A DNA stretch of 64,000 nt, from positions 231,001-295,000 of the forward strand of contig NZ_CP115465.1 of NCBI RefSeq assembly GCF_027912535.1. The letters are read 5' to 3'. A program made the position numbers and the translations under genes. Source of the DNA: Brevundimonas sp. NIBR11 (lineage in GTDB: Bacteria; Pseudomonadota; Alphaproteobacteria; Caulobacterales; Caulobacteraceae). Under the pieces are notes generated by a model, which was given only the letters and a program-made list of their open reading frames with translations, ran no database searches and was not told the origin of the DNA. Of this stretch, positions 2 to 8,294 are shown one piece after another; within the stretch, counting starts at the first letter, position 1; each line of letters starts with the position of its first letter.

Positions 2-460
2 CATTTCAACACGCTAACCAACCGCCTGAGAGACAAAGCTCCATTCAGCCCGTTTTCTACCGGTGGCGTTGAAATCAAGGCGACTTGTGGATCTGTCCCC
101 ACACCCGCCGCGCTGATGAAGCGCGGTTTGACTAAACCTGATATTGGCCAGCAGAGAGTAAAAATGTTGGTTGGATATGATTGGAAAGCTCACCATCAAG
201 ACACAAACAACTTGATGTCTTTATTTTGGGATTTCATCGACGGTGCCCCGCGAATCGTCGCCGTCTTTTACTGCGAAAGCCTGACGCGTGACGACTGGGG
301 CAAGATTGTTCAGCCCAAGGAGGGCGGGGGCCGGACAACTTCTGTTTCTATCATGACGCGTGCGGGAGTGCGGAAGATGTTCGATAATTGGGTGATCATG
401 CTAGACGACGCGGAATACAAAGCCTTCTTTGAGAAGCGAAACGCATCAAAATTCGTCTAA
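2..460 (+). CDS. C-terminal part of a probable type II restriction endonuclease (cut by window edge)
   Basis: The reading frame is open from the window edge to the TAA at 458-460, so the first ATG inside it (116) need not be the start; the gene most likely begins outside the window. Near the visible N-terminus is G-V-E-I-K-A-T, a good match to the (D/E)-x-K half of a PD-(D/E)xK nuclease site, followed by a basic region and a C-terminus rich in aromatic residues. It runs tail-to-tail into a C5-cytosine methyltransferase with a 4-bp overlap (457-460), a classic restriction-modification layout. Codon use is AT-rich compared with genes further right, suggesting horizontal acquisition. The nuclease role is inferred from the short motif and the partner gene; no family can be named from this fragment. 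Confidence 0.6.
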   Translation, partial: HFNTLTNRLRDKAPFSPFSTGGVEIKATCGSVPTPAALMKRGLTKPDIGQQRVKMLVGYDWKAHHQDTNNLMSLFWDFIDGAPRIVAVFYCESLTRDDWGKIVQPKEGGGRTTSVSIMTRAGVRKMFDNWVIMLDDAEYKAFFEKRNASKFV

Positions 461-1767
461 GCCGCAGCGCGCATCGTATCCATCTGCACAACACGCAGAA
501 TGTGACTAAAGATAACCTCTAGTCCAAGCGGGGGTATACTTTCGCCTATGACTTCACGGATCAACTTGTCGGAAACACGACCACCATCCGACCGTCGCCA
601 TACATAATGATCTTGATCGATAGTATGGATCAGGCAGGCCTCATGCAGCGACAAGACTCGGTGCTGCGTTGGGTGCAACTTCTGGTCGCTACAAGCATAC
701 GACAGATTTCTCGTCAGGGCGCTGGCGGGAAGGTCCCCCCGCATTCGCTTGTAAGCTGAGGTGAAACCGGACATCAGCCGATGCTCGCCGCCTCTCACGA
801 CCCACGGACGAGGAAGCAGCGTCCCGCATTTCCCACATCGTACGGGCGTAGTTTTGCTGGCCTGATTGATCCCCTCTTTGCTGCGAAGGTTGCCATGCGT
901 GGGGTTACCGTCGTAACCGCATTCTGGGTTGACGCATTGGTTGTCAAAAGCGCCTCCACCGGGAGGTGTGTTCGAAACCCAAAAATATTTGCTCTCATCC
1001 AACAAAGGCACGCGATGCAGGGGGATGTCTGAGACGGCGGTCTCCGGCTTGCCAGCGTCCAGCGCAGGCAGGTGACCAATCGTCTGCTCGACTGTAATCC
1101 AGGGTTTTTCAAGCAAGCTGGGGCGCCTAGCGTGGCTTGGTTCGGGAAGCCAGCGGTTGGCTAGAAGAGCGGCTTGAACATTCAATACGCGCGAGAAGAG
1201 GGTGATCAGGCGTTGCCGTCTTTGAGGTACGCCATAGTCCGCGAACTCGACGACGGCCGAACGACCCAGATATCCAAGTGGCGCGAGAGTTTCCTCGATC
1301 AACTCAAGCAGCCCAATGTAGCGGCCATCGGCTGAGCGAACGATCGTTTGCTCCATCTCCGGAACATTTTCCACCACCAGAACCTTGGGCAGAAGGGCAA
1401 CGACGACGTCGAGCATTGGCAGAACTAGCTGATTTCGGACATCAAGCTCGGGTTTCAGTCCAGCACGAACGCCCTGAAGCAACTTGCCGCGCCCATTCTT
1501 CGACATCCCCTGACACGGTGGCGTGGCAAACACGATGTCGAGCTCCCGCCCATTGAGCCGGTCGGTCGTCGTTGAGACGATTTGGTCTCTGACCTTCCAG
1601 ATATCGCCCTTTATGAGCGTCGCCGCCGGAAAGTTCGTCTCAAAAAGCGCCGCGCGTTCGCTCAGGATTTCATTGGCAACAATGGTCTGTGCACCGGCGG
1701 CGTGAAGCGCGATATCGCCGATTCCCCCAGAGCAAAACAGGCTTACGGCGGTCAGCGATTCGGTCAT
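457..1767 (-). CDS. DNA (cytosine-5)-methyltransferase with zinc-ribbon-like insertion
   Basis: A 436-residue C5-cytosine DNA methyltransferase, which transfers a methyl group from S-adenosylmethionine to cytosine in a specific site and would protect DNA from the convergent nuclease. Visible motifs: motif I F-C-S-G-G-I-G-D (residues 11-18), catalytic loop T-P-P-C-Q-G with Cys85, E-N-V at 133-135, Q-R-R-Q-R at 182-186, and a C-terminal motif X-like segment (about 404-424). Between motif VIII and motif X, where the target recognition domain lies, there is Cys278-x4-Cys283-x27-Cys311-x2-Cys314, a probable zinc ribbon. The ATG at 1767 sits about 7 nt downstream of a promoter-like -10, so the mRNA may be leaderless. 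Composition is less GC-rich than the neighbours. The target sequence cannot be predicted. Confidence 0.9.
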   Translation of the reverse strand: MTESLTAVSLFCSGGIGDIALHAAGAQTIVANEILSERAALFETNFPAATLIKGDIWKVRDQIVSTTTDRLNGRELDIVFATPPCQGMSKNGRGKLLQGVRAGLKPELDVRNQLVLPMLDVVVALLPKVLVVENVPEMEQTIVRSADGRYIGLLELIEETLAPLGYLGRSAVVEFADYGVPQRRQRLITLFSRVLNVQAALLANRWLPEPSHARRPSLLEKPWITVEQTIGHLPALDAGKPETAVSDIPLHRVPLLDESKYFWVSNTPPGGGAFDNQCVNPECGYDGNPTHGNLRSKEGINQASKTTPVRCGKCGTLLPRPWVVRGGEHRLMSGFTSAYKRMRGDLPASALTRNLSYACSDQKLHPTQHRVLSLHEACLIHTIDQDHYVWRRSDGGRVSDKLIREVIGESIPPLGLEVIFSHILRVVQMDTMRAAA

Positions 1768-1809: not shown

Positions 1810-4167
1810 CTACCGCCCCTTCCTAAACCGCTCCTGCGCCTCCGCCTGAGCCTCCTTCCGCCACCGCTTCGGCGCTGACGCATCCACGTCCTGCCCATCC
1901 CCGGTCAGCACCTCGTTGGCAAACTCCAGGTCGAGCAGTTTCAGCCGTTTGATCTCGTCGCGGAGGCGACCGGCTTCCTCGAACTCGAGGTTGGAGGCGG
2001 CCTCGCGCATCTTGGCCTCCATGTCGCGCAGGGCGGCCTGGAAATTGTTGCCGATGAAGGGGCGGCTCTCTTCCTTGACGCCCGTGGGGATCAGGACGCG
2101 GTCCTTCTCGTAGGGGCTGTCGAGGATTTCCTTGATGTCGCGCTTCACGCTCTCGGGCGTGATGCCGTGTTCGGCGTTGTACGCCTCCTGCCGTTCGCGG
2201 CGTCGGTTGGTCTCGGCGATGGCGCGCTCCATCGAGCCGGTCATGCGGTCGGCGTAGAGGATGACGCGGCCGTCGACGTTGCGGGCCGCGCGGCCGATGG
2301 TCTGGATCAGCGAGGTCTCGGAGCGCAGGAAGCCCTCCTTGTCCGCATCGAGGATGGCGACCAGGCCGCACTCGGGGATGTCCAGACCCTCGCGCAGCAG
2401 GTTGATGCCGATCAGGACGTCGAACGTGCCCAGGCGCAGGTCGCGGATGATCTCGATCCGCTCCATGGTGTCGACGTCGGAGTGCATGTAGCGGACGCGG
2501 ACGCCCTGTTCGTGCATGTATTCGGTCAGGTCCTCGGCCATCTTCTTGGTCAGGACGGTGACCAGCGAACGGTAGCCGTTGCGGGCCGTCTGTTTGACCT
2601 CGTCGATGACGTCGTCGACCTGGTTGCGGGTCGTGCCGCTAACGGGGCGGATCTCGACCGGGGGGTCGATCAGGCCGGTCGGGCGGATGACCTGTTCGAC
2701 GAAGACGCCGCCCGCCTGTTCCATCTCCCAGGTCTGGGGCGTGGCCGAGACGTGGATGGTCTGGGGCCGCATCGCCTCCCATTCGTCGAACTTGAGCGGG
2801 CGGTTGTCGATGCAGGACGGCAGGCGGAAGCCGTATTCCGCCAGGGTCGACTTGCGGCGGTAGTCGCCCCGGAACATGCCGTTGATCTGGCCGATGGTGA
2901 CGTGGCTCTCGTCCACGAACAGCAGGGCGTTGTCGGGGATGTATTCGAAGAAGGTCGGCGGCGGCTCGCCCGGCGCGCGGCCGGTCAGCCAGCGGGAATA
3001 GTTCTCGATCCCGGCGCAGGAGCCGGTCGCCTCCATCATCTCCAGGTCGAAGCGGACGCGTTGCTCCAGCCGCTGGGCCTCCAGCAGCTTGCCGTTCTCG
3101 ACCATCCAGTCGAGCGTCTCCTTGAGCTCGGCGCGGATGCCGTGGAGGGCCTGGTTCAGCGTCGGCCGGGGCGTGACGTAGTGGGAGGCGGCGTAGACGG
3201 TGATCTCCTTCAGATCGTTCGTCTTCTTGCCGGTGAGGGGGTCGAACTCCTGGATGGACTCGATCTCGTCGCCGAACAGGCTGACGCGCCAGGCCCGGTC
3301 CTCTTGGTGCACGGGGAAGATTTCGACCGTGTCGCCGCGCTTCCGGAACATGCCCCGCTCGAACGCCGCATCGTTCCGCTTGTACTGCAGCGCGATCAGA
3401 TCGGCCCTGAGTTTGCCCTCATCGATCTGGTCCCCGACCTTCAGGTCGAAGGTCATCGCCGTATAGGTCTCCACCGACCCGATGCCGTAGATGCAGCTGA
3501 CCGACGCGATCACGATCACATCGTCCCGCTCCAGAATCGACCGCGTCGCCGAATGCCGCATCCGGTCGATCTGCTCGTTTATGCTGGAGTCCTTCTCTAT
3601 ATATGTATCAGTTCTAGGAACGTATGCTTCAGGCTGGTAGTAATCATAGTAGCTTACGAAGTATTCGACCGCATTATCGGGAAAGAACGATTTAAATTCG
3701 GAGTATAGTTGCGCCGCTAGTGTTTTGTTTGGGGCAAGTATAAGTGCGGGCCGCTGGGTCTGTTCGATGACCTTGGCCATGGTGAAGGTCTTGCCCGAGC
3801 CGGTGACGCCCAGCAGAACCTGGTCCCTGTCGCCGGCCTCGGCCTGGGCGACCAGTTCGGCGATGGCGGCGGGCTGGTCGCCGGCGGGGGTGTAGCTGGT
3901 CTCCAGCCGGAACTTGCCGCTCTTCTTCTTGCCGTCGTGCGACGGGCGGTGCGGGACCCAGTCGTCGGGCTTGCCGGGGGCCTCCTCAGGCGTCAGGCGC
4001 GGGCCGGTGACGGGGGCGAACATGGGCATGTTCGCCATGGCCTTGGGCAGGGGGGCGTTATCGTCGCGCAGGAAGGCGGACGGGGCCTCCGCCACCCCCT
4101 GGTTGGGAATGTGGACCGGCTTCTTGATGACGGGGGCCGAGCCCTTCGGCGTGGAGGAACGGTTCAT
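1810..4167 (-). CDS. uvrB: UvrABC excision repair protein B
   Basis: UvrB, the damage-verifying helicase-like subunit of nucleotide excision repair; UvrA loads it on DNA and it then recruits UvrC for incision. At 785 residues it is longer than the usual 670 or so because of an N-terminal extension of about 90 residues before the conserved core. Seen: Walker A G-V-T-G-S-G-K-T-F (about residues 118-126), the tyrosine-rich beta-hairpin Y-Y-D-Y-Y-Q-P-E (about 170-177), the helicase motifs, and a C-terminal UVR domain that binds UvrC. An SOS box overlaps the first ATG. Codons for residues 138-191 are strikingly AT-rich although the protein sequence is fully conserved (see findings). The gene lies between two restriction-modification loci. 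Confidence 0.97.
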   Translation of the reverse strand: MNRSSTPKGSAPVIKKPVHIPNQGVAEAPSAFLRDDNAPLPKAMANMPMFAPVTGPRLTPEEAPGKPDDWVPHRPSHDGKKKSGKFRLETSYTPAGDQPAAIAELVAQAEAGDRDQVLLGVTGSGKTFTMAKVIEQTQRPALILAPNKTLAAQLYSEFKSFFPDNAVEYFVSYYDYYQPEAYVPRTDTYIEKDSSINEQIDRMRHSATRSILERDDVIVIASVSCIYGIGSVETYTAMTFDLKVGDQIDEGKLRADLIALQYKRNDAAFERGMFRKRGDTVEIFPVHQEDRAWRVSLFGDEIESIQEFDPLTGKKTNDLKEITVYAASHYVTPRPTLNQALHGIRAELKETLDWMVENGKLLEAQRLEQRVRFDLEMMEATGSCAGIENYSRWLTGRAPGEPPPTFFEYIPDNALLFVDESHVTIGQINGMFRGDYRRKSTLAEYGFRLPSCIDNRPLKFDEWEAMRPQTIHVSATPQTWEMEQAGGVFVEQVIRPTGLIDPPVEIRPVSGTTRNQVDDVIDEVKQTARNGYRSLVTVLTKKMAEDLTEYMHEQGVRVRYMHSDVDTMERIEIIRDLRLGTFDVLIGINLLREGLDIPECGLVAILDADKEGFLRSETSLIQTIGRAARNVDGRVILYADRMTGSMERAIAETNRRRERQEAYNAEHGITPESVKRDIKEILDSPYEKDRVLIPTGVKEESRPFIGNNFQAALRDMEAKMREAASNLEFEEAGRLRDEIKRLKLLDLEFANEVLTGDGQDVDASAPKRWRKEAQAEAQERFRKGR
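3596..3755 (-). other. Low-GC codon island inside uvrB
   Basis: Counting by eye, 3601-3740 is about 41% G+C, while 3781-3840 of the same gene is about 70%. The segment encodes the part after Walker A and the beta-hairpin. It uses codons nearly absent elsewhere in the gene, for example CTT ATA CTT, AAA ACA CTA, and AGA ACT GAT ACA TAT ATA. The protein sequence is normal for UvrB, so only synonymous positions are unusual. Confidence 0.85.
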
Positions 4168-4261: not shown

Positions 4262-7200
4262 CTAGGCGGCCTTCTTGACAGCGTGAGCGGGCGACGCGGG
4301 CCGGCGCTGGATCTGCTCCTCGTTCGCCTGAACCCGATTCAGCGCGATCAAGGCGGCCAGGATTTCGGCGTCACTCTGGGCAGGAGGCCAGCCATAGGCC
4401 TGGGCTGCGAGCCGGTCGATCGTGTCGTGGAGATGGCGTAACCGCAGGAGATGCGCGCGTCGAGCCGTATCGTTCTGCTCGGCGGTGAAAACCCGGCCGC
4501 TCCGCTGCGCCCCCAGGAGATTGTAGAGCCCGGTCAGCGTCAGGGTCGGGTTCTCCTCCAGGGCGCGTCGCCGGTACTCCTCCAACCTCTCGCCCGCGTC
4601 CCGAAGCGCGGCTCGCGTCGGCTCGTCAGGCGCGGGGAACGGGAAGGGGTCGAAGCAGGCGGTCTTGGTGTAGCGCGGGCGATCTTCCAGCCGGCCGCCA
4701 CGCGCTGCGGACCAGACGGCATGGGGTCTGCTGGAGAGAAGGGCGAGCGTCGCGGCATCCTCGTCCGCTATGCAGATCAAGGTGTTGTCCGGCGCGATGT
4801 CGGCGTCCAGGAACCGGAACGTGCGATGCTTGGCCGTCTCCGAGGTGACGATATAGCGGGACAGGCCTTTGAGCGCGGCTCTGAGTTCCGGGCGGGGCTT
4901 TCCGAACAGCCACCAGCGATCTGCGTAGGCTCGGGCGTCCGCTGTCGGGGAAGCGTCGCGCTGTGTGAGACGCGCCTCCAGGACGGTGCTCGCGAGATGT
5001 TCGTAAATTTCCGGGAACCGCTCAGCCACCTCGTCGAGTTCGAGCCCGTGCAGGTCGATGACCCAGGCATCGCGCGAACGACCATTCAGGTCGCGACCGC
5101 TGCGATAGCGGCGCAGTTGGTCGGAGAGTTTCGGTCGTCTTCCCTGACCCAAAGCCTCCTTCTGCGCCTCCGTGATCACGAAGCCCGAGCCGTGTAGTTT
5201 CATGCCCGGGAAGCAGCGTCCCTTGTTTCCGCGAAGAGGAGCGGCCTCGGCGCAACCTTCGTTCAGGGTCAAATCGGCGCCGATCCGACCCTGGGTCGAA
5301 ACGGTGGTCACGATGGGCGTATCGGTTTCGAGATCGGCTTCGCTCGCCACGGTCGTCAGCACGCCATCCTTGCGACCCGACTCGGCGACCGTGACGGCGA
5401 TGCGCACCGCCGCGCTGTCTCGGGTCGCCCTCGTCCACGGGTGGTCCGGTATGGCGTGCACGAGGCTGATCGGTCGATCGCCGATCAGCCGTCTTTCCAC
5501 TGTGCGCCGCTGAAAGATCTGGCCGATCGAGTTGGTGGTGACGAAGCCAAACCGCTTCAGACGGGTCCGTGGCCGGGCCAGGATTTCGGCGGCGCGATCC
5601 CACCAGTACATGACCAGATCGGCGCTCCGGTCGATGTGTGGGTTCACCGACCAGAGTGCGTCAGCATATCCGGGGTCGAGTCGCGAGCGGAGCTCCTTGC
5701 CGCCCATGAAGGGCGGATTGCTTATGATGAAGTCCGCCTTGGGCCAATCCGGTCGGTGGGGATTGGGCCAGTGAAAATCGGCTCCGTTCGCCGTGCGTCC
5801 GAACCGGGCGACGGGCGCGCCATCCCAGCCCAGGACAGCGTCCTGATGAAGAATATTGGCTCGTGACGCTAGCGCCCTGTCATTGGGAGGGTCGTCTCGG
5901 AGCCTGTAATGCTGCTGCAGCCAGCCGATCCAAAGCATCAGCTTCGCGATGCCGACGGCCTGTGGGTTCTTGTCCAGGCCAAAAAACTGCCGGGGATCGA
6001 CCGAGATCGCGGTGTCTGCAATGGGCGCGCCGAGTTGGCCCAGGGTCTCAGCGACCTCGGCCTCCAACCGCTTCATGCGCTCGAGGCAGACATAGAGGAA
6101 GTTGCCCGTTCCACACGCCGGGTCCAGTACGCGGATCCGGCACAATTTCGAGTGAAAGGTCCTGGCCATGCGGATGGCCTTGTCGCGGTCGGTGTCACGC
6201 GCGGCGTCGATCCTGGTCCTGACCGCTTCCCACGACTCCCAAAGCGGCTCCATGACCGTCTTCTCGACCACAGTCTCGACATAACGTCGCGGTGTGTAGT
6301 GTGCGCCCAGTCGCCGGCGCTCATCCGGGCTGAGCGCCTGTTCCAGAAGCGACCCGAAAATCGCCGGCTCTACCTGGCTCCACTTGGCCTTCGCTGCCTT
6401 GATCAAAAGTCGCAACTCGCTTGCTTCCAGCGGCAAGGCTTCTCGAAACTCCTGCGCGCCGCCGTCGATGTGCGGGAGAGGATGCGTGAATGATCCCGCG
6501 TGCCTCTGCCAAGGTTCACTCATGTCGAGCCGCTTCCAGAGGTCCGTCAGCATGGACGGAAACCGCCTCGGCGAATGGACGCTGTCTTCGAGAAGTTCGA
6601 TGAGGTCGCTCTTGGATATGAGGCCCACATCGGCGGCGAACATCGTGAAAATGCAGCGAAGGATGAACTGGGCGGCCTCTTCGGGAGAATGACCATCGCC
6701 CTCTAGGCGACGTGAGATTTCCGACAGGTCTTTGGCGATGATCCGCGTGACCCGAGCGGCCTCCCGGCTTGGATCAAGCGTCCGGGGTCTGGTCCAGATG
6801 GCGTGAAGACGCGCCTGGATATCGGCGCCCGCCAGGTCCTCGTGAGCGAAGCGATAATGCTCGCGGTCTGGAAACGGGGCGTAACCCCGGCCGGTGCCCG
6901 AGAAATCCGCCCAGACCTCGAAACCATGGGCGAGGTCGCAGATCAGAAGGAAGGGCGGGGCGGCGTGCTCCGGGGGCAACTGGAAGACGTAGCCTTGCGC
7001 CTGCTTGCGCGCCGCCAGCATGTCGGCTTCCCAGCCGCGCTGGATGACCGCCGCGGGTCCGGTAGAGTCTTCGGCGCGTCGCCTGAAAAGATCGAGCGCC
7101 CTCCGGTGGTCTCCCGTCGCCTTCGCTTCCAGGATGAAGCAATCGCGTTTGTAGAGATCGATGCGCTTGGTCTGGCCCGGCCCATCGAATGCCGACCGAA

Positions 7201-7360
7201 CGGTGTGCTCGAACCCGAAGTCTTCGGCTTGTGCCCCGCGCAGGGGCGGACGCGGAGCGTCGACGCCGAGGAAACCCATCAGGTCTTTCAGGTACGACTG
7301 CGCATGGCTCTGCTCGGTTACACCCCTACGCGCGCTCCACTCACCCACGAAGTCGGTCAT
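4262..7360 (-). CDS. MmeI-like type IIL restriction-modification enzyme (nuclease and adenine methyltransferase in one chain)
   Basis: A 1032-residue protein with the layout of MmeI-family (type IIL) enzymes, which cut and N6-adenine-methylate DNA with one polypeptide. An N-terminal nuclease motif Asp68-x9-Glu78-Ala-Lys80 has the same D-x9-ExK spacing described for MmeI. A helical spacer follows (about 200-340), then methyltransferase motif X G-A-H-Y-T-P (352-357), motif I D-P-A-C-G-T-G-N (413-420) and motif IV N-P-P-F (548-551). The C-terminal 400 residues should hold the target recognition domain. The ATG at 7360 was chosen because the conserved N-terminus begins there; the frame remains open upstream to 7594 without similarity. 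No separate modification or specificity gene is adjacent. The recognition site is unknown. Confidence 0.85.
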   Translation of the reverse strand: MTDFVGEWSARRGVTEQSHAQSYLKDLMGFLGVDAPRPPLRGAQAEDFGFEHTVRSAFDGPGQTKRIDLYKRDCFILEAKATGDHRRALDLFRRRAEDSTGPAAVIQRGWEADMLAARKQAQGYVFQLPPEHAAPPFLLICDLAHGFEVWADFSGTGRGYAPFPDREHYRFAHEDLAGADIQARLHAIWTRPRTLDPSREAARVTRIIAKDLSEISRRLEGDGHSPEEAAQFILRCIFTMFAADVGLISKSDLIELLEDSVHSPRRFPSMLTDLWKRLDMSEPWQRHAGSFTHPLPHIDGGAQEFREALPLEASELRLLIKAAKAKWSQVEPAIFGSLLEQALSPDERRRLGAHYTPRRYVETVVEKTVMEPLWESWEAVRTRIDAARDTDRDKAIRMARTFHSKLCRIRVLDPACGTGNFLYVCLERMKRLEAEVAETLGQLGAPIADTAISVDPRQFFGLDKNPQAVGIAKLMLWIGWLQQHYRLRDDPPNDRALASRANILHQDAVLGWDGAPVARFGRTANGADFHWPNPHRPDWPKADFIISNPPFMGGKELRSRLDPGYADALWSVNPHIDRSADLVMYWWDRAAEILARPRTRLKRFGFVTTNSIGQIFQRRTVERRLIGDRPISLVHAIPDHPWTRATRDSAAVRIAVTVAESGRKDGVLTTVASEADLETDTPIVTTVSTQGRIGADLTLNEGCAEAAPLRGNKGRCFPGMKLHGSGFVITEAQKEALGQGRRPKLSDQLRRYRSGRDLNGRSRDAWVIDLHGLELDEVAERFPEIYEHLASTVLEARLTQRDASPTADARAYADRWWLFGKPRPELRAALKGLSRYIVTSETAKHRTFRFLDADIAPDNTLICIADEDAATLALLSSRPHAVWSAARGGRLEDRPRYTKTACFDPFPFPAPDEPTRAALRDAGERLEEYRRRALEENPTLTLTGLYNLLGAQRSGRVFTAEQNDTARRAHLLRLRHLHDTIDRLAAQAYGWPPAQSDAEILAALIALNRVQANEEQIQRRPASPAHAVKKAA

Positions 7361-7508
7361 CCGATTTCCCCGTAAAGATGTATATTGGGAATTCAAACAC
7401 AACCCAAGGGTGTTGCCAAGCCGACTTTCGCAAGGGTCGACCAGGGTTGCGATGATTGCTCGGGAGGGGTCGGTTAGGATCGGGCGGAGAAACCCCGGCG
7501 ATTCGGCG

Positions 7509-8294
7509 ATGAACCCCAAGCGCGCGCAGTTTGTGATGGTCTTGACGGCGGCTCTGCTCGCTGTCCCCGCCTGCGGCCGCCTGATCCCCAACACCGCGCC
7601 GCCGCCCGGCTATACGCCCTACTATCCGACGCCCGCGCCCCAGCCTCGGCCACCTGCGCCGGGCCCCAGCGCCTATGTCGCCCCCGGCTCGGGCGTGATC
7701 GACCAACGTATCGACAGCGGGACGCTCGGCCGTGTTCAGCGGGCCACGCGGACGCTGGCGCAGTGCGAGGCGGAGCTGGCGTCGGCGCGGGTGACGTTTT
7801 CGCCGACGCCGGACCGGGTGAACTCGGCGACCTGCGGGTTGACGGCGGCGGGAGTGCTGGGGCCGGATATGGGAACCGTGGCGCGGATGGCGCCGGGCGA
7901 TGTGACCATGACCTGCGCGCTCGCGGCGGCGGTCAGCGTTTGGCGACGGCAGTCGGTCGAGCCGGCGGCGCGTGAGCTGCTGGGGTCGGACGTGGTCCAG
8001 ATCGATCACATGGGGGTCTATGCCTGCCGGGCGGTGAACAACGGACGGCCGAACATCCGGCCCAGCGCCCACTCACGCGCGGCGGCGCTGGATTTCTCGG
8101 GCGTGAGGCTGCGGGACGGGCGGCGGATCACGGTCGCCGGCGACTGGAACGACGGCGGGCCGGAGGCGGCGTTCCTGCGGCGGATTCGCGACGACGCCTG
8201 CAAGATCTTCGGCACGACCCTGAGCCCCGACTACAACGCCCAGCATCACGACCACCTGCATCTGGAGGCGGAGAGCGGGCGGCTGTGTCGCTAG
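7509..8294 (+). CDS. Extensin-like family lipoprotein
   Basis: A 261-residue exported protein with a C-terminal extensin-like domain. The N-terminus has a short basic segment, a hydrophobic core and a lipobox-like V-P-A-C-G, so it is probably a lipoprotein. A proline-rich linker (about residues 30-60) follows. The C-terminal domain shows the usual pattern: H-S-R-A-A-A-L-D-F-S-G, an R-x-R-D-x-A-C segment, and H-H-D-H-L-H-L-E near the end. The family is common in alphaproteobacteria and its histidine/aspartate pattern resembles metal-dependent peptidoglycan peptidases, but activity is not established. The ATG at 7509 was chosen because the signal sequence starts there. It is divergent from the restriction enzyme gene. 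Confidence 0.8.
   Translation: MNPKRAQFVMVLTAALLAVPACGRLIPNTAPPPGYTPYYPTPAPQPRPPAPGPSAYVAPGSGVIDQRIDSGTLGRVQRATRTLAQCEAELASARVTFSPTPDRVNSATCGLTAAGVLGPDMGTVARMAPGDVTMTCALAAAVSVWRRQSVEPAARELLGSDVVQIDHMGVYACRAVNNGRPNIRPSAHSRAAALDFSGVRLRDGRRITVAGDWNDGGPEAAFLRRIRDDACKIFGTTLSPDYNAQHHDHLHLEAESGRLCR

Follow-up and report, generated by a model that had tools for sequence, protein, structure and literature searches.

When a homing endonuclease of phage T4 cuts the DNA of another phage, the local sequence of the latter is replaced around the site (PMC2988022). The AT-rich tract that we describe here, in the uvrB gene of Brevundimonas sp. NIBR11, resembles the T4 case in that sequence is replaced locally, around a fixed position of a resident gene, with no insert left. 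It differs in that the T4 endonuclease genes are known and the replacement travels with them, whereas the cutter of uvrB is putative, and in that the changes in uvrB are almost purely synonymous and affect a bacterial core gene. Centred tracts of flanking replacement in conserved genes also arise when inteins and group I introns cause exon co-conversion, but the uvrB site has no insert and the mapped UvrB inteins lie in the Walker A motif. Clusters of rare codons, which are thought to aid co-translational folding, resemble the uvrB case in placing rare synonyms at one fixed position in a conserved protein. The uvrB tract, however, is patchy within one genus and is switched between sister species. 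Finally, resistance alleles to homing gene drives carry silent changes at a conserved cut site and keep the protein. Many silent alleles at a conserved site, with the protein kept, are also found in uvrB, but the case is natural and its drive presumptive.

Silent sites are usually taken as neutral or as the tuning of codon usage. Here, in about half the genus, a highly conserved repair gene has undergone repeated, nearly silent-only turnover at a single place. Should an invader be responsible, such islands would point to the DNA sequences targeted by homing or integrating elements and could be searched for genome by genome. If the cause is a translational pause or a binding site, a housekeeping gene would hold a lineage-specific silent function that sister species gain and lose.

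A recurrent AT-rich tract with a fixed centre

The window, a stretch of 64,000 nucleotides of the NIBR11 chromosome, includes uvrB at positions 1810..4167 of the minus strand (785 aa, with the Pfam domains UvrB_inter, UvrB, Helicase_C and UVR). Codons 137-196 (3580..3759, minus strand) form an island of AT-rich synonymous codons with sharp edges in the sliding GC3 profile of the gene: GC3 is 0.47 in the island (28/60) and 0.93 in the remaining 725 codons (677/725; Fisher p = 4.3e-19). An earlier note on this DNA had estimated by eye 41% G+C at 3601-3740 and 70% at 3781-3840, and had placed the island at about codons 138-191. The computed values are 0.414 and 0.700 (0.431 at 3596-3755), the bounds are correct to within a few codons, and, GC3 being abnormal by calculation, the claim stands. 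The note was also right that the encoded residues are ordinary UvrB and that the synonymous choice alone is abnormal. Between NIBR11 and its sister G034, 39 of the 58 codons at 139-196 differ and no residue does. We take the segment to be the beta-hairpin of UvrB. The Walker A motif (GVTGSGKT, codons 120-127, 3787..3810, minus strand) has normal codon usage.

How unusual such an island is can be judged from the same chromosome, of which 864 kb were covered (645 stop-to-stop ORFs with GC3 >=0.8, 243,863 codons). A 58-codon window with GC3 <=0.62 is present in 67 of these ORFs, and in 40 of the 67 a different codon position is rich in GC, as happens when the frame is wrong. Among the 27 remaining ORFs, uvrB has the lowest value (0.45), and in many of the other 26 the window starts at or near the start of the ORF. 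The island of NIBR11 is also the longest low stretch among the first 30 genomes profiled.

The tract recurs throughout the genus. Our sample contained 131 Brevundimonas genomes; 124 have a matching uvrB segment and 122 were scored at codons 177-196, after leaving out three second copies (G152, G022, G126) and two genomes with too few codons. GC3 is at most 0.62 in 69 of the 122, intermediate in 4 and at least 0.78 in 49, and no control window of the same genes is as low as 0.62 (0/6,387: 0/5,767 at codons 230-740 and 0/620 at codons 70-129). In the other genera of the family, one of the 29 scored loci (L279), from 28 genomes chosen from 199, has a low tract. Other families have shallower dips (e.g., L145, L150, L176) and may have a mild form of the island. 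Part of these dips is explained by residue make-up, because Tyr and Glu have reduced GC3 (0.77 and 0.75) even in normal stretches.

The comparison of 70 low and 54 high copies per codon locates the centre of the tract. The difference in GC3 peaks at codons 180-188 (EAYVPRTDT; 3604..3630, minus strand), hereafter the core, and declines to either side, as far as about codons 153 and 197. Such a pattern, with a single centre and a difference that weakens away from it, would be expected of tracts that differ in length around one site. Across the genus, synonymous divergence is maximal at codons 175-195 (0.507, against a gene median of 0.198), and amino-acid divergence is low there (0.024, against 0.081). 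The 70 low copies have 68 distinct spellings of 63 nt. The least conserved synonymous stretch of uvrB is 176-197 in low copies and 207-218 in high copies. A second bump of the low-high difference occurs at codons 210-216, inside a weaker synonymous-variable stretch (codons 205-219, 3511..3555, minus strand) that varies in genomes with a GC-rich tract too. A further peculiarity concerns the last codon of the island, Ile196 (3580-3582), which most genomes of the AT-rich and GC-rich groups alike spell ATA or ATT: it is GC-ending in proportions of 0.24 and 0.17 in the two groups, against 0.97 expected from Ile elsewhere in the gene.

Turnover and origin of the spellings

The tract changes rapidly between close relatives. 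We compared, codon by codon, 19 hand-picked pairs of sister or near-sister genomes. The best segment covers the core in 17 of them, and 59-83% of its codons differ, with no amino-acid difference in 16 pairs and a single one in the other (G009/G019). The flanks of the same 17 pairs differ at 6-18% of codons, or 29% in G118/G093. In the two remaining pairs the best segment is off the core, at codons 149-163 (G145/G115) and 266-272 (G105/G153). On a FastTree phylogeny built from the gene outside the tract (118 rows, 66 of them low), the low state requires at least 23 changes.

Tract and flanks also conflict. In one clade, flank identity pairs G016 with G029 (0.975) and G004 with G119 (0.972), whereas tract identity pairs G016 with G004 (0.921) and G029 with G119 (0.905), each of the sister pairs being at 0.746 in the tract. 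These crossed tracts require either exchange or a long-kept polymorphism. Statistics computed over the whole gene do not single out the tract: its distances track the rest of the gene like those of other windows (Mantel r of 0.37 at codons 175-195, gene median 0.36), its haplotype structure, with a variance ratio of 1.59, is no stronger than that of controls (median 1.54), and near-identity between distant low genomes is less frequent in the tract (17 of 2,059 pairs) than in most control windows. The case for exchange thus rests on the conflicts in sister pairs, and an ancestral polymorphism may have been kept and sorted instead.

Where did the spellings come from? At residues 139-196, 121 of the 122 genus copies have 0-3 differences to NIBR11 and the other has 5, and all 54 scored loci of other families have at least 2. 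Three loci of other genera of the family have no residue difference over the 58 codons, yet they are not AT-rich like NIBR11. We scanned 84,980 species with one recurrent AT-rich spelling (spelling b) and obtained 15 stretches. Fourteen are from genomes of the genus (ten named Brevundimonas and the four MAGs G142, G116, G117 and G119), and the last is a Simkaniaceae record matching at 64 of 81 nt only, an unrelated chance match. In plasmids and phages, the matches listed are ordinary uvrB or short chance matches, and none is a donor. The residues of genus type and the confinement of spelling b to the genus make a distant low-GC donor unlikely.

In all likelihood, the tract is thus the result neither of ordinary drift nor of distant low-GC DNA; it is a silent hypervariable cassette that is exchanged or sorted within the genus. 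The earlier note had put forward gene conversion from a low-GC donor, to be recognized as plain conversion by absence of the island from close relatives together with a match to such a donor. Conversion-like replacement is indeed the best description, and G034, the closest sister, has an almost normal GC3 (0.75), but no matching low-GC donor was found and the distant origin is unsupported.

Candidate causes of the silent turnover

Our comparisons directly show a recurrent AT-rich tract of fixed centre and variable length, near-absent amino-acid change, fast turnover, and conflict between tract and flanks. To explain them we favour, tentatively and at somewhat less than an even chance, a DNA-sequence-specific invader as the most likely origin of the many synonymous spellings around codons 180-188, with respelled copies resisting it and spreading by short homologous exchange. 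The invader would be a homing-type endonuclease or an integrase, cutting or inserting at these conserved codons. Copies with synonymous respelling would escape it, acting as resistance alleles that keep the protein, and would then spread by short homologous exchange, presumably rather than by sorting. If invariant codons are attacked in a sequence-specific way and respelled copies escape and are shared, the expected footprint combines a fixed centre with a variable extent, almost silent change, fast switching and crossed spellings. Our searches of genus, family, class, phages and plasmids found no invader, insertion or donor template. A more specific form of this idea, which we regard as rather unlikely, is a natural counterpart of gene-drive resistance: a hypothetical mobile cutter or integrase would target EAYVPRTDT genus-wide, and hosts would answer with an exchangeable synonymous 'serotype' written only in the silent sites of a core repair gene within a defence-gene hotspot.

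If an intron or intein encoding an endonuclease had homed repeatedly into the site, copied its flanking exon and later been lost, the tract would be a scar of exon co-conversion. This fits the fixed centre and the decay on both sides, and UvrB is known from our searches to host inteins with a LAGLIDADG domain. However, no contig of the 131 genus genomes (124 matched) has an internal insertion at the site, and none was seen among the matches listed for 199 genomes of the family (185 matched) and 142 of the class (129 matched). Several partial matches in the genus stop at contig ends and one genome (G005) has a deletion; the odd cases of family and class are, where read, contig ends, an N gap or a deletion. 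An apparent insert at the site in G190, considered as an intron, consists of Ns, and no intron passes the Rfam gathering scores in L194 or L195. The inteins themselves point elsewhere. Among the best 120 of 466 long UvrBs listed, 94, counted by eye, carry PF14890, which we take to be the intein splicing domain, mostly with LAGLIDADG_3, and the mapped inteins, all from other bacteria, insert next to residue 127, in the Walker A motif. We rejected the island as the site of the UvrB inteins mapped among these best 120 of 466, which sit at residue 127, where codon usage is normal; a rarer intein site may exist. Moreover, 68 spellings would demand many donors. Altogether, we find exon co-conversion improbable.

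Walker A inteins with LAGLIDADG_3 occur in UvrBs of Persephonella, Saccharimonadales, Chloroflexia, Armatimonadota and others (P0134, P0136, P0155, P0186), and a length-filtered search for long UvrBs returned mostly long rhizobial ones. In the open PMC literature we found no paper on a UvrB intein, which does not imply absence from print; uvrB, intein and LAGLIDADG together retrieved only a work on GIY-YIG nucleases, and Brevundimonas with uvrB only unrelated works. LAGLIDADG_3 domains are present in 2 of the 131 genus genomes, G018 and G113, both with an AT-rich tract, in open frames of 847 and 841 aa (L328, L329).

Programmed slow translation, in which selection would favour AT-rich rare codons for a ribosome pause during the folding of UvrB, whichever synonym is used, has a similarly low probability in our judgement. 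It would account for rare codons such as AGA and ATA, for their fixed place in the protein and for the high synonymous diversity among low copies. Yet the conservation expected of a rare-codon pause is missing: the tract occurs in 69 of the 122 genus genomes and is absent from about 40% of them (the 49 at GC3 >=0.78), and it occurs in 1 of the 29 scored loci of other genera of the family and is absent from 28. Nor does a pause predict that sisters switch state or spelling in a patchy, crossed pattern.

The tract might instead hide a cis-element, i.e., AT-rich DNA or RNA inside the gene acting as a binding site, promoter or small RNA, as the earlier note had also proposed. The low spellings have AT-richness in common, Ile196 keeps its AT-rich ending in most genomes of both groups, and, in antisense orientation, low tracts fold slightly more stably than their synonymous shuffles (mean z of -0.92 in 25 genomes, against +0.39 in 24 GC-rich ones). 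Against this, the low spellings share no motif beyond AT-richness, consensus folds are weak, no promoter- or terminator-like site was found in the tract, and Rfam gives nothing above its gathering score and one match below it. These searches provide no evidence for the element, which we hold to be quite improbable. Least probable of all is that a low-GC bacterium from beyond the genus donated the tract by plain gene conversion, an idea suggested by the base composition of the tract but contradicted by its genus-type residues, by the practically genus-confined spelling b, by the lack of a donor in plasmids and phages, and by the Leu codons of the NIBR11 tract, which are CTN throughout and never TTA or TTG.

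No second copy of the low spelling was found in the 131 genomes, except for two contigs each in G022 and G126. The GC-rich consensus has short matches outside uvrB, many of which map to the core, one of them, in G117, with 24 of 24 nt. We rejected these as spacers, attachment sites or second copies: the 20 regions read resemble unrelated genes, in several of which one frame or another encodes a short peptide resembling AYVPRTD, and the matches look like chance, except in G152. This genome has a second, distant UvrB-like gene (L080, C1:1401065-1401469), with 62% identity in the searched segment. Among viruses, 23 loci encode the segment within UvrB, several of them ending at a contig end, and one (L204) covers codons 75-311 only; no viral contig matched two back-translations of the core. 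Large serine recombinases (PF07508) are present in 98 of the 131 genus genomes, often several per genome and some close together (L330-L333 among them). None of the matches listed lies beside uvrB, the nearest being about 14 kb away (G069).

A defence-gene hotspot beside uvrB

In NIBR11, uvrB lies between two genes of restriction-modification type. The variable slot downstream of uvrB carries a C5 cytosine methylase (457..1767, minus strand; Pfam PF00145) and the slot upstream an MmeI-like restriction-modification protein (4262..7594, minus strand; Pfam MmeI domains), relatives of which adjoin uvrB in eight further loci of the genus. The first ORF downstream of uvrB, as given by a crude ORF finder, is unique in 18 of 21 genomes. 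We picked by eye 10 of 29 unique downstream proteins, and 9 of them match PADLOC models, including a methylase, a type II restriction enzyme, HNH, AriA/OLD-like, AbiLi-like, TIR-NLR and PDC-S15 (presumably FRG-like) proteins. An HNH and a restriction-type cargo protein are found beside uvrB in G020 and G127. The slots beside uvrB (NIBR11; loci L334-L353) are thus a defence-gene hotspot in Brevundimonas. We found no paper on such a hotspot at uvrB in the open PMC literature, which does not mean that none is in print.

The position of uvrB in this hotspot accounts for the flanking restriction-modification genes, but not by itself for the tract. The earlier note had seen in these neighbours a hint of a mobile-element scar. 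They are real, as confirmed by Pfam, but we rejected them as the cause of the tract, since in the 21 genomes variable cargo adjoins low and high tracts alike.

Two further features of the locus were noticed along the way. Several contigs from MAGs and viruses end within uvrB, many of them between about codons 143 and 220 (L138-L143, L196-L198, L224, L225), perhaps because this stretch is common to co-occurring species. In G267, uvrB (L195 4672-7599) lacks codons 191-224, just after the core, in an otherwise open frame, which may be an assembly error or a real deletion; a guanidine-II and a fluoride riboswitch lie near the gene in the same genome (L195 10503-10549 and 13324-13385, respectively).
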